NCBI GenBank assembly: GCA_021809995.1
Contig: JAJZJT010000003.1
Coordinates: 1-36,127 of the forward strand
Source of the DNA: Actinomycetes bacterium
GTDB taxonomy: Bacteria > Actinomycetota > Acidimicrobiia > Acidimicrobiales > RAAP-2
DNA: 36,127 nucleotides
Reading direction: 5' to 3'
Made by a program: the position numbers and the translations under genes. The notes under the pieces were generated by a model that had not been told where the DNA came from, did not search any database, and saw nothing but the letters and a program-made list of their open reading frames with translations. This document shows positions 7,030 through 36,127 of the stretch, piece by piece (within the stretch, counting starts at the first letter, position 1; each line of letters starts with the position of its first letter).

Positions 7030-8894
<1,865 letters not shown>

Positions 8895-9022: not shown

Positions 9023-12000
9023 ATGTCCGGTCGTCCGTGGACCCGTCTATTGACCGTCGTGCCCGTTCTCGCGCTCGTCGCAGGGGTCTTGGCTGCGACA
9101 CCACCGAGCGCGGCAGCTGCCGTGCCACCGGTCTCCGGCGTCCCGCCCACGACGTCGCCGAGCGGGTACTGGCTGGCGACGGCCGGCGGGCAGGTGGTCG
9201 TCTCCGGCGCCGCCGGTGTCTACCAGCGGTCGGGTGGGCCCGCCTCGTCGGCCGCGCACGCCCACGTCGTCGGCATCGCCCGGACGCCGTCCAGCGACGG
9301 CTACTGGCTGGCCGCCGCCGACGGCGCCGTCGTGCCCCACGGGGACGCCGGCTTCTTCGGCTCGGCGCTCGCCCGACCGGGCGCGCCCGTCGTCGCCATC
9401 GCGGCGACCCCGGACGGCCAGGGGTACTGGCTGCTGCGCGCCGACGGCACCGTGCTCGCCTTCGGTGACGCCGGCATGCGGGGCTCGGCCACCACCGCTG
9501 CCCTCGGGTCGACCGCCGTCGGCTTTGCCCCGACCCCGACCGGCAACGGCTACTGGGTGCTCGGCGCCGACGGCACGGTCCTCGGCTTCGGGGACGCCAC
9601 GCTCCACGGCTCGGCCACCACCGCCGCCCTCGGGTCGACCGCCGTCGCCATCGCCGGCACCCCAACCGGCAACGGCTACTGGGTGCTCGGCGCCGACGGC
9701 ACGGTCCTCGGCTTCGGGGACGCCGCCGGGTACGGCTCGGCCACCACCGCCGCCCTCGGCGGCCCGGCGGTCGCCCTCGTGTCGACCCTCTCCGGCCACG
9801 GCTACTGGGTCACCGGTGCCACCGGGACCGTCCTCGCGTTCGGCGACGCCACCACCACCCCGGCACCGGCGGTGCCCGCCGGCGCCGGCGCCGTCGTGGG
9901 CATGGCGGCGGTCGGGCCGACCGTCGGCGGACAGGTGCTCCTCGTCGGCACGTACCACGGCATCCCCGGGCAGTACACGTCGATCCAGGCCGCAGTCGAC
10001 GCGGCCCGCCCGGGTGACTGGGTCCTGGTGGCGCCGGGTGACTACCACCCGACGACCGACCTGACGCACCCGCCGAGCGCGGCGAACGTGTCGAACGGCT
10101 GGAACGGCGGGATCGAGATCTCCACGCCCGACCTCCACGTGCGGGGCATGAACCGGGCGACCACCATCATCGACGGCACGAAGGCCGGGTCGCCGACGTG
10201 CAGCTCGAACCCCGCCGACCAGCAGCTCGGCGAGACGCTCCCCGGCCAGACCAAGCCCATCGGCCGCAACGGGATCGTGGTGTGGAAGGCCGACAACGTC
10301 ACGATCCAGAACCTGACGGTCTGCAACTTCCTCCAGGCCAACGGCAACGGCGGCAACGAGATCTGGTGGAACGGCGGCTCGGGGTCGGGCGCGATCGGGA
10401 TGGCCGGCTACTCGGGCAGCTACCTGACGGCGACCTCGTCCTTCGACGGCACGGTCGCCGGCGAGCAAGCGGCCGGCCTCTACGGCATCTTCTCGAACAG
10501 CGCCGCCGGGCCCGGGGTCTGGAACCAGATCTACGCCAACAACTTCACCGACTCGGGCATGTACATCGGGGCGTGCCAGCAGGCGTGCGACGCCTGGATC
10601 CACAACGCGTGGATGGAGAACAGCGCCCTTGGCTACTCCGGGACCAACTCGGGCGGCACGATGGTCATCGACCACTCGCAGTTCGACAACAACGAGGACG
10701 GGTTCGACACGAACACGCAGAGCGTCGGTGACCCCCCGCCACCCCAGAACGGCACCTGCCCGAGCGGGGGCGTGAGCGCCATCACGAAGACCACGTCGTG
10801 CTGGGTGTTCATGCAGAACTACGTCCACGGCAACAACAACCCCAACGCCCCCGGCTACGGAGCGGTGGCCCAGCCGACGGGCACCGGCATGACGGTGTCG
10901 GGTGCCACCCACGACACGATCATGAACAACCTCTTCGCCGACAACGGGGCGTGGGGCACCCTGTTCGTCCCCTACCCCGACACCAGCCCGGGCGGCCCGG
11001 GCGTGTGCACCGGCTCGGGGGGACACCTCGCCCTCGGCGTGTGCCTCTACGACCCGGAGGCCGACGCGCTCCTCAACAACACCTACGTGCACAACGGCTT
11101 CTTCGGGAACCCGAGCAACGGCGACTACGGGGAGATCACGTTCTTCCCGAACGAGCCGCAGAACTGCTTCGCCGGCAACGTGGCGCCCGACGGGAGCTCG
11201 CCGGCCAACCTCGAGCAGACGCAGCCGACCTGCGGGGCGCTCACCACCCAGACCGTCTCGTCGAGCCAGTTGGGCCAGCCGGGGTCCCTGATCAACCAGG
11301 TCCTGTGCGACACGGGCTTCGCTTCGTCGTTCGGCCAGTCGTGCACGCCGAGCGAGGACAAGTACCCGACGCCGTCGGCCAACGCGCCGGTGCTGACCTC
11401 GGTGCCCACGTCGCTGCCCACCATGCCCAACCCCTGTCAGGGCGTCCCCGCCAACGCCTGGTGCCCGCCGGTGCCGGCGGGCAAGGCGGTCCCGACCACG
11501 ACAGTCGGGGTCCCCGCCTCCGGCTCCACCCTCACCGGGGGCGTCTATCTCGACGCCTCGGCCTCCTCACCCACCGGGGTGCGCCGCGTGCGGTTCGTGC
11601 TCTCGGGGGGCGGGCTCCATGACCTGGTGGTCTCCGGCTCGACGGCGACGACGGTCGGCTACATCGGCGGCTTCGACACGACGACCGTGCCCAACGGCAC
11701 CTATCAGCTGCGGAGCGAGGCCTTCGGCGACGACGGCGTCCACGCCTTCAGTCCCCCGGTCGTGGTGAGCGTGCTCAACCATCGCCTGCGCACACGGGTG
11801 CTCGTCCCGGGCAGCGGCGCCGTGGTGACCGGCGGCTCGGTCCTCGACGCGTCGGCGACCGGCCTCGGTCCGGTCACGTCGGTCCGCTTCGCCCTCACAG
11901 GGAACGGCCTGCGGCGCCCGGTCGTCGTCGGACGGGCCCGGCTCACCGGCTACGGATGGATCGCCCTGCTCGACCCGGCGGGGCTGTACCCCGGGGCCTA

Positions 12001-13483: not shown

Positions 13484-14809
13484 ATGACCACCACCTACGA
13501 CCCGGCCGACCGCCAGTACCTCGACGACGGCGACCTGCGGCACGAGCTCGAACGCGTCTTCGATCTCTGCCACGGCTGTCGGCTGTGCTTCAACCTCTGC
13601 CCGTCGTTCCCCACCCTGTTCGACTTCGTCGACCGGCACGACGGCGACGCGTCGGCGCTGACCGTGGCCGAGCAGGACCAGGTGGTGGACGAGTGCTACC
13701 AGTGCAAGCTGTGCTACGTGAAGTGCCCCTACGTCCCGCCGCACGAGTGGGCGCTCGACTTCCCCCGGCTCATGATGCGGGCCCATGCCGTCCGCCACGC
13801 CAAGGGCCAGGGGCTCAAGGCGCGCCTCACCGACCAGTTCCTGGGCCGGACCGACCTCCTCGGGACGGTCTCGACGGCGATGGCACCCCTCGTGAACGCC
13901 GTGACGGGCACACCCGGCTCGTTGCCTCGTCGCCTGATGGAGAAGACGGTGGGGCTGGCTGCCGAGCGGCTCCTGCCGCCGTACGCCCGGCAGCGGTTCA
14001 CGACGTGGTTCGCCCGTCGGGCCAAGCCGGCGGGCGCCCCGGCGCAACCCGAGGTCTCCGTCTTCCCGACGTGCTTCGTCGAGTACATGGAGCCGGAGAT
14101 CGGCAAGGACATCGTCCGGGTCTTCGAGCACAACGGCGTCGGTTGTGCCGTGCCCGAGGGCACGAGGTGCTGCGGAGCGCCGTGGCTCCACGCCGGTGAC
14201 GTCAACGCGTTCACCCGCGCCGCCGAGCGGAACGTGGCTGCCCTCGCCGGCGAGGTCCGAGCGGGACGCGACGTGGTCGTCGCCCAGCCCACCTGCGCCT
14301 ACGTGGTCAGGCAGGACTACCCGCGGGTCCTCGCTCACTCACCGCTCGCCGAGGACGCCGCCCTGGTGGCCGCCCACACGAGCGACCCGGCCGAGTACCT
14401 GATGGCTCGCCACCGCGACGGCACCCACCCTCTCGTGACCGAGTTCCCCGGCCGCGAGCGGGGCGACGTGCCCGACCAGGTCACCTACCACGTCGCCTGC
14501 CACCTGCAGGCCCAACAGGTCGGCCTGAAGAGCAGGGACCTGCTCAAGGTGGCCGGCGTCAAGGCGACGCTCGTGCAGCGATGCTCGGGCATCGACGGTA
14601 CGTGGGGCTATCGGGCCGAGCACTACGAGCTGGCCCGGACCGTGGCCAAGCCCCTCGCGCGCGACATCGAGTCGGCCGGCAACGAGCTGGTCTGCGGCGA
14701 CTGCCACCTGGCCAACGGGGCGATCGAGCAGGAGACCGGCCGGCGGCCGCTCCATCCGATGCAGGTGCTGGCGCGCGCCTACGGGCTCGACGAGGAGGGC
14801 CGGTCGTGA
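13484..14809 (+). CDS. GlpC/HdrD-like protein with two 4Fe-4S clusters and cysteine-rich domains
   Basis: The protein has 441 residues. Two 4Fe-4S motifs lie near the N-terminus: Cys29/32/35/39 ([12 protein letters not shown]) and Cys71/74/77/81 ([12 protein letters not shown]). Two cysteine-rich (CCG-like) halves follow: Cys197, Cys229-Cys230-Gly and Cys271; then Cys339-His, Cys367 and CGDCH (404-408). This is the layout of GlpC, the electron-transfer subunit of anaerobic glycerol-3-phosphate dehydrogenase, and of heterodisulfide reductase HdrD. No catalytic GlpA/GlpB partner is encoded nearby, and glpD here is the aerobic single-subunit type. Its place between rubrerythrin and DUF3501 suggests a role in peroxide or thiol redox instead; that is inference. 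GAGGAGG lies seven bases upstream of ATG. Confidence 0.88.
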
Positions 14810-33635: not shown

Positions 33636-33803
33636 TTCAGTTGACGCCGGCGATGCCGATACGTGATGTCGGGCCGGGACTGTCCCGCCCGCCGTCGGTG
33701 CAGGGCGCCGTCGCCGCAGGCTGCCGGACACCGGGTCCGCCGTGGCAGCGACCGGGGACGACGAGCGGCGACGGTGCAGGACGAGAGCACTAGGAGCAGC
33801 ACT

Positions 33804-34517
33804 ATGCACGCACCCCGTCGGACGCGACGAGCGGGGCTCGTCGCCTCACTGGTCGGCGTCGCCGCCCTCGGGCTCACCGCAGCCACGACCCTCGGTCTCA
33901 CCAGCTTCACCGCCCAAGTCGGGGGCACGGGCACCTACCAGAGCGGGACGCTCGTCCTCGCCAAGCAGGTCGGCAGCGGCGCTCCGTGCCTGTCGAGCTC
34001 GAACGCCGCCGGCTCCATCACCACCAACATCGACGCCACCTGCCCGGGCAGCGACCTCGGGTCGGTCGCCACCGGGGGACCCGGGACGACCGCCACGACC
34101 ACGGTCACGCTGACCAACGAGGGGTCGGTCGCCGCCACCAGCGGGCTCGCCCTCACCACCGGCGCGTGCACGGCGACCGGCGCCCCCGATGCCGCGTCGC
34201 CGCTCGTCCCCCTGGCCACGGGCTCGGACACCACCGGCTTCTGCGGCAAGGTCGACGTGACGATCGAGGACCTGACGGGGACCGTCTCGTGCCTCTTCCC
34301 GGCGGGCGCCGGAGCCTGCCCCGCCCCGTCGAACGCAGGCGGCACCCTCGCCACGCTGGCTGCCAAGACGACGCCGCTCGCCGCCTCACTGGCACCGGGG
34401 GCTTCCGAGCAGCTCCAGATCACCACCATGCTCGACGACGGAGCGACCACCGGGGCGACCAACGCCGACCAGGGGCTGGTCGCGAGCATGCCGATGACCT
34501 ACACGCTCGCCCAGTGA
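33804..34517 (+). CDS. Secreted camelysin/TasA-like protein
   Basis: The 237-residue protein starts with a basic n-region and long hydrophobic segment (RRTRRAGLVASLVGVAALGLTAATTLGLTSFTAQ). GGTGTYQSGTLVLA follows, typical of SipW-type signal peptides and mature starts of camelysin/TasA-like surface proteins. The mature part is Thr/Ala/Gly-rich with repeated TVTLTNEGSVAATSGLAL-type beta strands and six cysteines, likely forming disulfides outside the cell. TasA relatives form fibres or coat proteins; that role is inference here. AGGAGCAGCACT precedes ATG 33804. No SipW peptidase gene is visible before the window ends. The next gene repeats its N-terminal module and may be co-transcribed, 39 bases downstream. 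Confidence 0.78.
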   Translation: MHAPRRTRRAGLVASLVGVAALGLTAATTLGLTSFTAQVGGTGTYQSGTLVLAKQVGSGAPCLSSSNAAGSITTNIDATCPGSDLGSVATGGPGTTATTTVTLTNEGSVAATSGLALTTGACTATGAPDAASPLVPLATGSDTTGFCGKVDVTIEDLTGTVSCLFPAGAGACPAPSNAGGTLATLAAKTTPLAASLAPGASEQLQITTMLDDGATTGATNADQGLVASMPMTYTLAQ

Positions 34518-34556
34518 GTTGACGGGGTCGCGCCCTCCGGCGAGCCCGACGCGCCG

Positions 34557-36127
34557 ATGAGCGTCTCCGACCCGCCGGAGCGGGCGGCAGGGACACGGTG
34601 GCGGGCCGTCCGCACCCGACCGCGGTGGCGGGTGCGGACGGCTGTCCCCGCGCTGCTCGGCGTCGTGGCCGTGGTGGCGGCGGTCTCGGGTACCCCGGAG
34701 GCGTTCGGGGGCTTCGGCGCGGCGGTCGGGGGGACCGCGGCGACGCCGTCGGGGACCCTGGTGCTCGCCGACTCAGCCGGCGGCGCAACGTGCACGAGCG
34801 CGCCCGACGTCGCCGGCGGGATCACGTCGGACGTGGCTGCGTGCCCGACGTCGGTCATGTCCCCCGTGCTGGGCTCGTCGAGGACGTTCTCCGTCACCTC
34901 AGCGGGCTCCCTCGTCCCGACCTCGGTCACGTTGTCGACGGCCGGGTCGTGCGGTGTCGAGGAACTGGCTGATGCCGCGACGGGCTCCGGTGACCCGGGG
35001 CTCGTCGTCGGAGGCACCACGGTGGGGGTGCCCGGGCCCCCTGCCCTGTCCGGAGCACGGGCGGTGGCCTTCGACGGCCGCTCCGGCTACGCCGAGACGG
35101 TTGGCGGGCCGGCCCAGTCTTTCGACGCGTCCCCGGGACCGCAGGCCTTCTCGCTCGTCGCCTGGTTCGAGACGACGAGCGGGGGATCGGTGATCGGCTT
35201 CAGCAACAGCCAGTCGGACACGGGCCAGCAGACGTGGGACCGCCAGCTGTGGGTGGACCCGGCGGGGCACGTGGTCTTCGGCGTCTACCCGAACCGGACC
35301 TTCGAGGTGTCGAGCGCCCAGACCACGACGACGAGCTTCGCAGACGGCGCCTGGCACCTCGCCGTCGCCACGGTCACACCGGTGACCGCCCGGCGGGCGA
35401 CCGTCGAGCTCTACGTCGACGGTCGGCTCGTCGGAGGAGGGGTGCGTGACGAGCCGATCACCGCCGGCCAGCCGGCCCAGGCCTACGGCGGGTTCTGGCA
35501 CCTCGGGTGGTCGGGGGCCGGCAGCGGGTGGCCCGACCCGCCGACCAGCCCGTTCTGGGCGGGCTCGCTCGCCGACGTGGCCGTCGTCCCTGCACCGCTC
35601 AGCGCATCCCAGGTGGCCGTCCTCGCCGCGGCGAGGAGCCAGGCGGCCTTCGCCTCCGCCGTGGCCGCGACGGCCCCCCAGTCGTTCTGGACGATGCAGG
35701 GCACGGGCGCTGCCCGCTACACCGGGCCGGTCGCCGACCTCGCGTCGGCCGGGGCGACGTTCCCGGACGCGTCGGGCAACCCGGGCACCAACACGGGGAC
35801 GGGCTTCGGCGGCCTGGCTCCCGACAGCGCCGGTCCCCTCGGGGGACCTGCCACGTCCTTCGACGGCTCGACGGGCTGGGTCGAGACGACGACCGGCCCC
35901 CCCACGCCCTTCTACGCCTCGCCGGGCCCCCAGTCCTTCTCGGTCGCGGCGTGGTTCGAGACGACGACCGGCGGGTCGATCCTCGGCTTCACGAGCAGTC
36001 GCTCGGACACGGGCCAGCAGACGTGGGACCGCCAGCTGTGGGTGGACCCGGCGGGGCACGTGGTCTTCGGCGTCTACCCGAACCGGACCTTCGAGGTGTC
36101 GAGCGCCCAGACCACGACGACGAGCTT
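34557..36127 (+). CDS. Secreted protein with LamG-like repeats, cut by window edge
   Basis: Direct translation from ATG 34557 stays open for 523 codons to the right edge. The N-terminus has an Arg-rich n-region and a hydrophobic segment (VPALLGVVAVVAAVSG). SGTLVLADSAGGATCTSAPDVAGGITSDVAAC then aligns with SGTLVLA...SITTNIDATC of the preceding protein, so both share one module. Two concanavalin-like (LamG/laminin-G-type) domains follow, at about 175-365 and from about 435. Each has FDG...GxxET, FSxxAWFETT, QLWVDPAGHVVFGVYPNRTFEVSSAQTTT, and in the complete first copy WHLAVATVTP and LYVDGRLVGGG. Such domains bind sugars or proteins at the cell surface. No strong ribosome binding site precedes ATG; no other start is available after the upstream in-frame stop at 34515. 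Confidence 0.8.
   Translation, partial: MSVSDPPERAAGTRWRAVRTRPRWRVRTAVPALLGVVAVVAAVSGTPEAFGGFGAAVGGTAATPSGTLVLADSAGGATCTSAPDVAGGITSDVAACPTSVMSPVLGSSRTFSVTSAGSLVPTSVTLSTAGSCGVEELADAATGSGDPGLVVGGTTVGVPGPPALSGARAVAFDGRSGYAETVGGPAQSFDASPGPQAFSLVAWFETTSGGSVIGFSNSQSDTGQQTWDRQLWVDPAGHVVFGVYPNRTFEVSSAQTTTTSFADGAWHLAVATVTPVTARRATVELYVDGRLVGGGVRDEPITAGQPAQAYGGFWHLGWSGAGSGWPDPPTSPFWAGSLADVAVVPAPLSASQVAVLAAARSQAAFASAVAATAPQSFWTMQGTGAARYTGPVADLASAGATFPDASGNPGTNTGTGFGGLAPDSAGPLGGPATSFDGSTGWVETTTGPPTPFYASPGPQSFSVAAWFETTTGGSILGFTSSRSDTGQQTWDRQLWVDPAGHVVFGVYPNRTFEVSSAQTTTTS
35214..35338 (+). repeat. 125-base direct repeat, copy 1, in the LamG-like gene
   Basis: Identical over at least 125 bases to 36003-36127. 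The copies are 789 bases (263 codons) apart, in frame, and encode the QLWVDPAGHVV...SSAQTTTTSF core of each LamG-like domain. Confidence 0.95.
36003..36127 (+). repeat. 125-base direct repeat, copy 2, reaching the window edge
   Basis: Exact second copy of 35214-35338. It still matches at the last base of the window, so its true length is unknown. Flanking domain sequence is clearly diverged, so the identity is local. Confidence 0.95.

Follow-up and report, generated by a model that had tools for sequence, protein, structure and literature searches.

A predicted TasA-like fibre locus with LamG domains nested in a subunit paralogue in Acidimicrobiia-type Actinomycetota

In Bacillus subtilis the signal peptidase SipW cleaves both TasA and TapA, and the N-terminal strand of a TasA subunit completes the next subunit of the fibre (PMC9674648). 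TapA, which also serves as a donor through its N-terminus, is described as unlikely to act past initiation (PMC10151520). Mixed TasA-CalY filaments, together with CapP, have been reported for Bacillus cereus (PMC13082335), and TasA-like systems are described as widespread, archaea included (PMC10903470). Here, we analyzed two adjacent genes, termed P1 and P2, at the right end of a 36,127-nucleotide stretch of DNA from an Acidimicrobiia-type bacterium. This whole stretch, the window, corresponds to bases 1-36127 of contig C53; the genome comprises 2.89 Mb in 355 contigs. We propose, with a probability of about 0.7, that P1, P2 and a SipW-type peptidase, encoded on another contig here, constitute an operon for a TasA-like fibre with a dedicated LamG adhesin. 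An earlier reading made from the letters of the window (the sequence-only reading) had suggested that P1 and P2 could be a fibre subunit and its adhesin, and we infer the same. The features of the locus are the following.

33792..33796, + strand: AGGAG, resembling a ribosome-binding site, 5' of the P1 ATG (read from the sequence)
33804..34517, + strand: P1, TasA-like putative fibre subunit of 237 amino acids (aa) with a signal peptide and a six-cysteine beta module (open reading frame, homologues, predicted fold)
33804..33902, + strand: P1 signal peptide, limits set by eye (basic start and hydrophobic stretch, kept in the 24-row alignment)
33903..33938, + strand: P1 segment SFTAQVGGTGTY, candidate donor strand 3' of the signal peptide (conserved in both location and pattern; function proposed from TasA, whose N-terminal segment with its donor-strand role, PMC9674648, is the model)
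34557..36127, + strand: P2, LamG domains set into a P1-like module, gene truncated at the contig end (open reading frame, Pfam, profile comparison)
34557..35030, + strand: N-terminal half of P2's P1-like module, with three cysteines, third Cys codon at 34950-34952 (hhalign to P1)
35136..35618, + strand: first LamG domain of P2, given as its best Pfam match at residues 194-354 (PF13385, E-value (E) 3.3e-13)
35844..36125, + strand: second LamG domain of P2, truncated, with an approximate start (second PF13385 stretch)
35214..35338, + strand: first copy of a 125-base exact repeat, inside the first LamG domain
36003..36127, + strand: second copy of the repeat, in the same part of the second LamG domain, ending at the contig end

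Both proteins begin alike: a stretch resembling a signal peptide leads into a segment that has SGTLVLA at its end; in the alignment a GFSAxIxN segment is conserved directly 3' of the signal peptide. The sequence-only reading had noticed a common N-terminal module with SGTLVLA and a cysteine-rich string. This was borne out: both reading frames exist, and SGTLVLA is accompanied by SITTNIDATC in P1 and by GITSDVAAC in P2. When compared with the P1 profile, the part of P2 before the LamG domains aligned to residues 13-130 of P1 with an hhalign probability of 98.3 and a score of 93.5, while the highest score among 100 column-shuffled controls was 19.8. The likeness is not restricted to the N-terminus, as had been supposed. 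The part of P2 after the LamG domains, which the window does not contain, matched P1 residues 149-231 (probability 95.0, score 53.9; best of 100 shuffled controls 19.4), and both parts joined reached a probability of 99.1 and a score of 127.9.

The cysteines support the same arrangement. Residues 62, 80, 122, 147, 163 and 172 of P1 are cysteines in every covering row (24 P1 rows). In the P2 rows (n = 14) cysteines occupy these six columns as well, three before the LamG domains (13/13) and three after them (14/14), and the LamG inserts are free of cysteine in 14/14. Because of this 3+3 pattern around the LamG domains, the alignments place them between the third and fourth cysteine of a complete P1-like module. 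The idea that P2 is the module fused to large domains therefore held for the presence of the module and of LamG (PF13385, 50.5 bits at a curated Pfam cut-off of 27.6) and failed for their order, as the LamG domains lie inside the module, not behind it. PF13385 was found at E ≤ 1 in 6/7 P2 alignment members, the seventh being a C-terminal fragment (L030:1-369). In the P1 model the insertion point falls into a lower-confidence stretch without regular structure, between the end of a strand at 126 and the start of a helix at 146.

Within the window the P2 reading frame covers 523 aa and is still open at position 36127, the contig end. The second LamG domain shares 77.2% identity with the first over 92 residues, and the assembly probably stopped at 36127 because of the exact 125-base repeat ending there. 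In related loci P2 carries one (L045, L053 and L058, the last with a P2 of 444 aa), two (most loci) or three (L060) LamG domains at the same place. Identity between the first and second LamG domain inside one protein ranged from 42.1% in L055 to 84.4% in L039, and judged from the sequences the copies seem to have been duplicated or homogenized within lineages. In a tree of 21 P1 and 13 P2 modules, built without the LamG domains and leaving out L055, L056 and L058 (P1, partial) as well as L057 (P2, N-half missing), a single branch parts P1 from P2 (support 99/99, recovered in 100% of 200 bootstrap trees). This branch indicates that P1 and P2 are old paralogues rather than products of repeated fusions.

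The structure of P1 was predicted with AlphaFold from 24 rows. Searched with Foldseek against 350,542 PDB chains, the model had a single match at E ≤ 1e-3, the TasA fibre 8aur (E 1e-4, probability 1.00, template modelling score 0.40). In VIA, the first three ranks were TasA entries (Z 9.4, 8.0 and 7.9; the top one with 146 aligned residues and a root-mean-square deviation of 3.2), followed at rank 4 by the Pyrobaculum bundling pilus 7ueg (Z 7.4); the others among the matches listed had Z ≤ 6.8. Since models without clear relatives come close to Z values of 7-8, we give weight to the top row and to the fact that the first four ranks agree. P1 is thus predicted to adopt a TasA-type jelly-roll.

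Homologues of P1 were present in 7 of 61 neighbourhood genomes, the own genome included. In all six others, a SipW-like match (to TIGR02228) lies at a distance of about 2-3 kb from P1, with the strand being the same. In five of them (G001, G035, G021, G020, G032) P1 is followed by a full-length P2 (707-750 aa) and next by the peptidase; G007 encodes P1 and the peptidase without P2. When named genomes were searched with the alignment of P1, 23 loci were obtained. Near P1 and on the same strand, a LamG gene was found in 20/23, a SipW-like gene in 20/23 and both in 18/23. Among these 18 the order is P1-P2-SipW in 17 and P1-SipW-P2 in one (L050). Six of the 23 loci are records used to build the search models; in the remaining 17, LamG was found in 15, SipW in 14 and both in 13. 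In L046 and L049 the sequence breaks off within the LamG gene, before a SipW gene could appear, and L056 has neither LamG nor SipW.

The hosts are Actinomycetota assemblies, several of them Acidimicrobiaceae (bog, palsa and other environmental samples), and a few carry other labels. One host strain is cultured, Agreia bicolorata VKM Ac-1804 (Microbacteriaceae). In a sample of the phylum, P1 was matched in 8/396 genomes, several matches being weak, and plasmids and phages searched with the Agreia P1 gave no match. The label 'Candidatus Saccharibacteria' of L060 (CAJCJA010000055.1) is probably wrong; G403, with the same contig coordinates, belongs to the window's own family. L054 contains two P1 copies, at 9896-10591 and 13921-14630, upstream of P2 and SipW, the second being frameshifted. 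Frameshifts, due to decay or sequencing errors, were also seen in P2 and SipW of L052 (2015-5223) and in SipW of L057 (8494-9763) and L136 (5463-6406).

In the own genome, contig C155 starts inside a P2-like C-terminus with 76% identity to the P2 of G001. The peptidase gene comes next, its GTG start overlapping the P2 stop. From the gene order in relatives, C155 would continue the P2 of the window. The expectation of the sequence-only reading that a SipW-type peptidase accompanies the pair agrees with the related loci and, by way of this presumed link, with the own genome. SipW-type enzymes have a Ser-His pair, as opposed to Ser-Lys signal peptidases. In the SipW-like stretches (n = 38) the Ser motif was found in 37/38, one stretch being cut short, and the following His in 38/38; in the C155 peptidase (L030) S43, H85 and D111 are invariant in 7 rows. 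This protein reached 38.8 bits and that of L120 51.6 bits, below the TIGR02228 cut-off of 51.85, and since the C155 protein lies under it we speak of 'SipW-like'. At their C-terminus the SipW-like proteins (L030:369-1430 and relatives) carry an extension, about 110 residues long and lying between hydrophobic stretches, for which no known family was found. A hidden P1-like domain in this extension was rejected (hhalign probability ≤ 0.7).

A second locus of the own genome (L031, G000:C13:10000-27000) contains a TasA-like gene and a plain SipW gene at 7254-8012 and 8059-8778. The TasA-like gene has a SipW-type signal peptide and matches NCBIfam TasA at E 1.4e-4; the SipW gene scores 80.8 bits with TIGR02228, above the cut-off. 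The models used gave no LamG match in this pair. A search of the own genome with TIGR04088 matched the C13 locus alone.

The LamG domains raise the question of what they bind. The P2 model, built from 14 rows (mean predicted local distance difference test score (pLDDT) 72.5, predicted template modelling score (pTM) 0.55), matched laminin LG4-5 pairs in Foldseek (E 2.7e-12) and AbnA domain 4, PTX3 and PAPP-A in VIA (Z about 18). The whole-P2 structure search was filled by LamG folds, and speaks neither for nor against a TasA-like fold of the P2 halves. The LamG domains could bind the matrix polysaccharide of the bacterium itself and cross-link a biofilm, which would make P2 a matrix linker and not an adhesin for outside surfaces. 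This we regard as rather unlikely, yet it is the strongest competitor of the adhesin. TasA fibres are matrix scaffolds (PMC9674648), and the structure that the LamG part matches best is domain 4 of the arabinanase AbnA, solved with an arabino-oligosaccharide (VIA Z 18.4). However, the LamG folds of pentraxin and PAPP-A are equally good matches, so the fold is silent on the ligand; at the level of models, the common LamG fold does not indicate one.

A second arrangement was found in the family of Agreia, the Microbacteriaceae, where P1 was matched in 27/249 genomes. One locus was examined from each of 18 of these 27 genomes, and in 17/18 P1 is followed by a SipW-like gene and then by a LamG protein. 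This protein of about 280-300 aa consists of a signal peptide, a short segment (for example AYVASIRNSNN or GFTAKINNGTN) and a single LamG domain, which reaches to within 3-8 residues of the stop; the protein lacks the module's second half. The segment aligns to the first strand of P1 after the signal peptide (hhalign 84.8% with the signal peptide included). Without the signal peptide it scored 26.1 against a best of 17.6, and 0/200 shuffles reached this score, a control that is optimistic as the cut pattern was chosen by eye. The NCBIfam family 'TafC fimbrial protein' was discarded as a label for two Microbacteriaceae LamG proteins and one Agreia protein, since the matches were far under the cut-off; in the first two they lay on the LamG part.

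These short proteins bring up another function for the LamG partner. P2 and the Microbacteriaceae LamG protein might act like TapA or CapP as a starter or anchor, with LamG tying the fibre to the cell envelope and not to foreign surfaces. All 17 Microbacteriaceae proteins retain only the P1-like first strand along with a C-terminal LamG domain; TapA, too, donates its N-terminus, with a role beyond initiation thought unlikely (PMC10151520), and CapP is described as controlling TasA-CalY filaments (PMC13082335). The nested P2, however, keeps a whole module with six cysteines, superfluous for a mere starter, and its one to three LamG domains fit display better than anchoring. We hold an anchor to be unlikely, a little more so than a matrix linker, and prefer P2 as the adhesin of the fibre.

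By sequence, P1 is connected to known families only through remote relatives. L138 (P1 profile E 1.1e-31) scored 22.1 bits with the Pfam camelysin model PF12389 (Peptidase_M73), just under its cut-off of 22.5, and matched NCBIfam TasA at E 1.6e-4. L139 (P1 profile E 1.5e-7) reached 25.5 bits, above the cut-off, with a match confined to its N-terminal part (profile 3-46). These weak relatives bridge P1 to camelysin and TasA at the level of sequence comparison. PF12389 found no match in the own genome. The description of P1 as camelysin-like in the sequence-only reading can be kept for the predicted fold and has to be given up for the family model, which does not recognize P1. That P1 is a secreted camelysin-type protease, with P2 acting at the surface as an enzyme or binding protein and no fibre being made, is very improbable: one weak relative exceeds the cut-off of a family named for a metallo-endopeptidase, but that match is N-terminal only, the nearest fold is a TasA fibre subunit, and an adjoining paralogue combining the module with lectin-like domains would be odd for a protease.

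The L139 locus (G374:C25, 3097-6255) encodes two P1-like proteins of 372 and 666 aa with extra segments other than LamG, and a SipW-type gene lies downstream at 7966-8571. In the first protein, about 137 extra aa (from the profile match) lie between the P1-like halves. As these residues sit where P2 has its LamG domains, the loop between the halves seems to have taken inserts more than once. A sequence link to AbpX (9sj2 and 9rhp, E 0.15-0.17), the only match that a 7-row P1 profile gave in the PDB, was dropped, as it was absent with the 24-row profile, whose sole PDB match was unrelated (E 3.8).

Several observations weigh against a TasA-like fibre with a LamG adhesin. The P1 model is of moderate quality (mean pLDDT 68.1, pTM 0.65), and its N-terminal strand, the putative donor, has low confidence. 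Pfam returned no family for P1 at E ≤ 10, and NCBIfam no useful match for P1 or P2, the TasA model NF046066 included for P1. No LamG gene lies near P1 in 3/23 loci (L051, L056, L061). About 100 alignment columns or residues separate the P2 of the window from C155, and the window end has no exact overlap with the C155, C13 or C56 stretches; as these contigs share no sequence, P2 and C155 were linked by the gene order of relatives. LamG domains also occur in enzymes and non-adhesive proteins. The sequence-only reading had named as fatal a locus with neither a peptidase nor a likeness of the modules. What we found is a SipW-type gene, a TasA-like predicted fold for P1, and a likeness of P2 to P1 that comes from profile comparison.

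Fibre formation, donor-strand exchange, growth direction and ligand binding can be pictured by analogy with the described systems. The SipW-type peptidase would remove the signal peptides and free the N-terminal strand (GFSAxIxN...). P1 would then polymerize, most likely via its strand entering the next subunit as in TasA. P2, a P1 paralogue with one to three LamG domains in the loop between cysteines 3 and 4, could join this fibre because it retains the strand together with the remaining module, and would hold its lectin-like domains outward or sideways to bind glycans or other surfaces. The LamG protein of the Microbacteriaceae could donate a strand and not accept one. As it keeps the strand without an acceptor module, it would serve as the first subunit only, and if subunits are added at the cell, this strand-only lectin would end up at the fibre tip. 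Actinomycetotal donor-strand fibres may then carry dedicated lectins in two ways, nested LamG domains anywhere in the fibre (Acidimicrobiia-type bacteria and Agreia) or a strand-only LamG protein fixed at one end (other Microbacteriaceae), a generalization to which we give slightly less than even odds.

TasA-type fibres are known as scaffolds, and in the parts of the literature consulted we did not find the carriage of an adhesin by them described. In the loci studied here the operon itself provides a lectin-bearing subunit, located near P1 in 20 of the 23, and the related family has the strand-only alternative. Searches of the open literature did not return SipW together with LamG; by title, they gave nothing on biofilms for TasA with LamG and no actinobacterial TasA/SipW fibre, none for Microbacterium either; AbpX with AbpA and TafC with fimbria also yielded nothing. 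The components are known ones; as far as the open literature was searched, neither a nested LamG subunit nor a LamG protein with the strand alone has been described. The range of TasA-like systems would grow to include uncultured Acidimicrobiia-type bacteria, where the second component differs and for which we know of no structural work. Whether SipW-processed fibres display LamG domains at the tip or along the shaft, and for which ligand, is a question testable in the culturable Agreia bicolorata.

The locus resembles tapA-sipW-tasA of B. subtilis in the predicted subunit fold, the dedicated SipW-type peptidase and a second exported protein with a similar first strand. Unlike TasA, P1 shows six cysteines that are conserved and is matched by no Pfam family; unlike TapA with its Ig domain, P2 has LamG domains inserted in a P1-like module; the order here is P1-P2-SipW and the peptidase bears a C-terminal extension. 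With the B. cereus genes sipW-tasA, bc1280/capP and calY it shares the combination of two TasA-family proteins, there TasA and CalY, with one SipW, which processes both in B. cereus, and heterofilaments have been shown in that species (PMC13082335). In contrast, the sections consulted of that study mention no LamG domain, and CapP is a separate chaperone-like protein (PMC13082335). The AbpA bundling pili of Pyrobaculum calidifontis have a TasA-like fold as well (7ueg, Z 7.4), the relation being distant. We know of no LamG partner in these archaeal pili. Chaperone-usher pili of the FimH type combine donor-strand exchange with a two-part adhesin and appear in VIA at Z of about 6 for the P1 model. 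The locus described here differs from them in that it has no chaperone or usher, and its binding domain lies inside the subunit, not ahead of the pilin domain. If the proposed mechanism is true, it would represent a Gram-positive counterpart of tip-adhesin pili that works without chaperone, usher or sortase.

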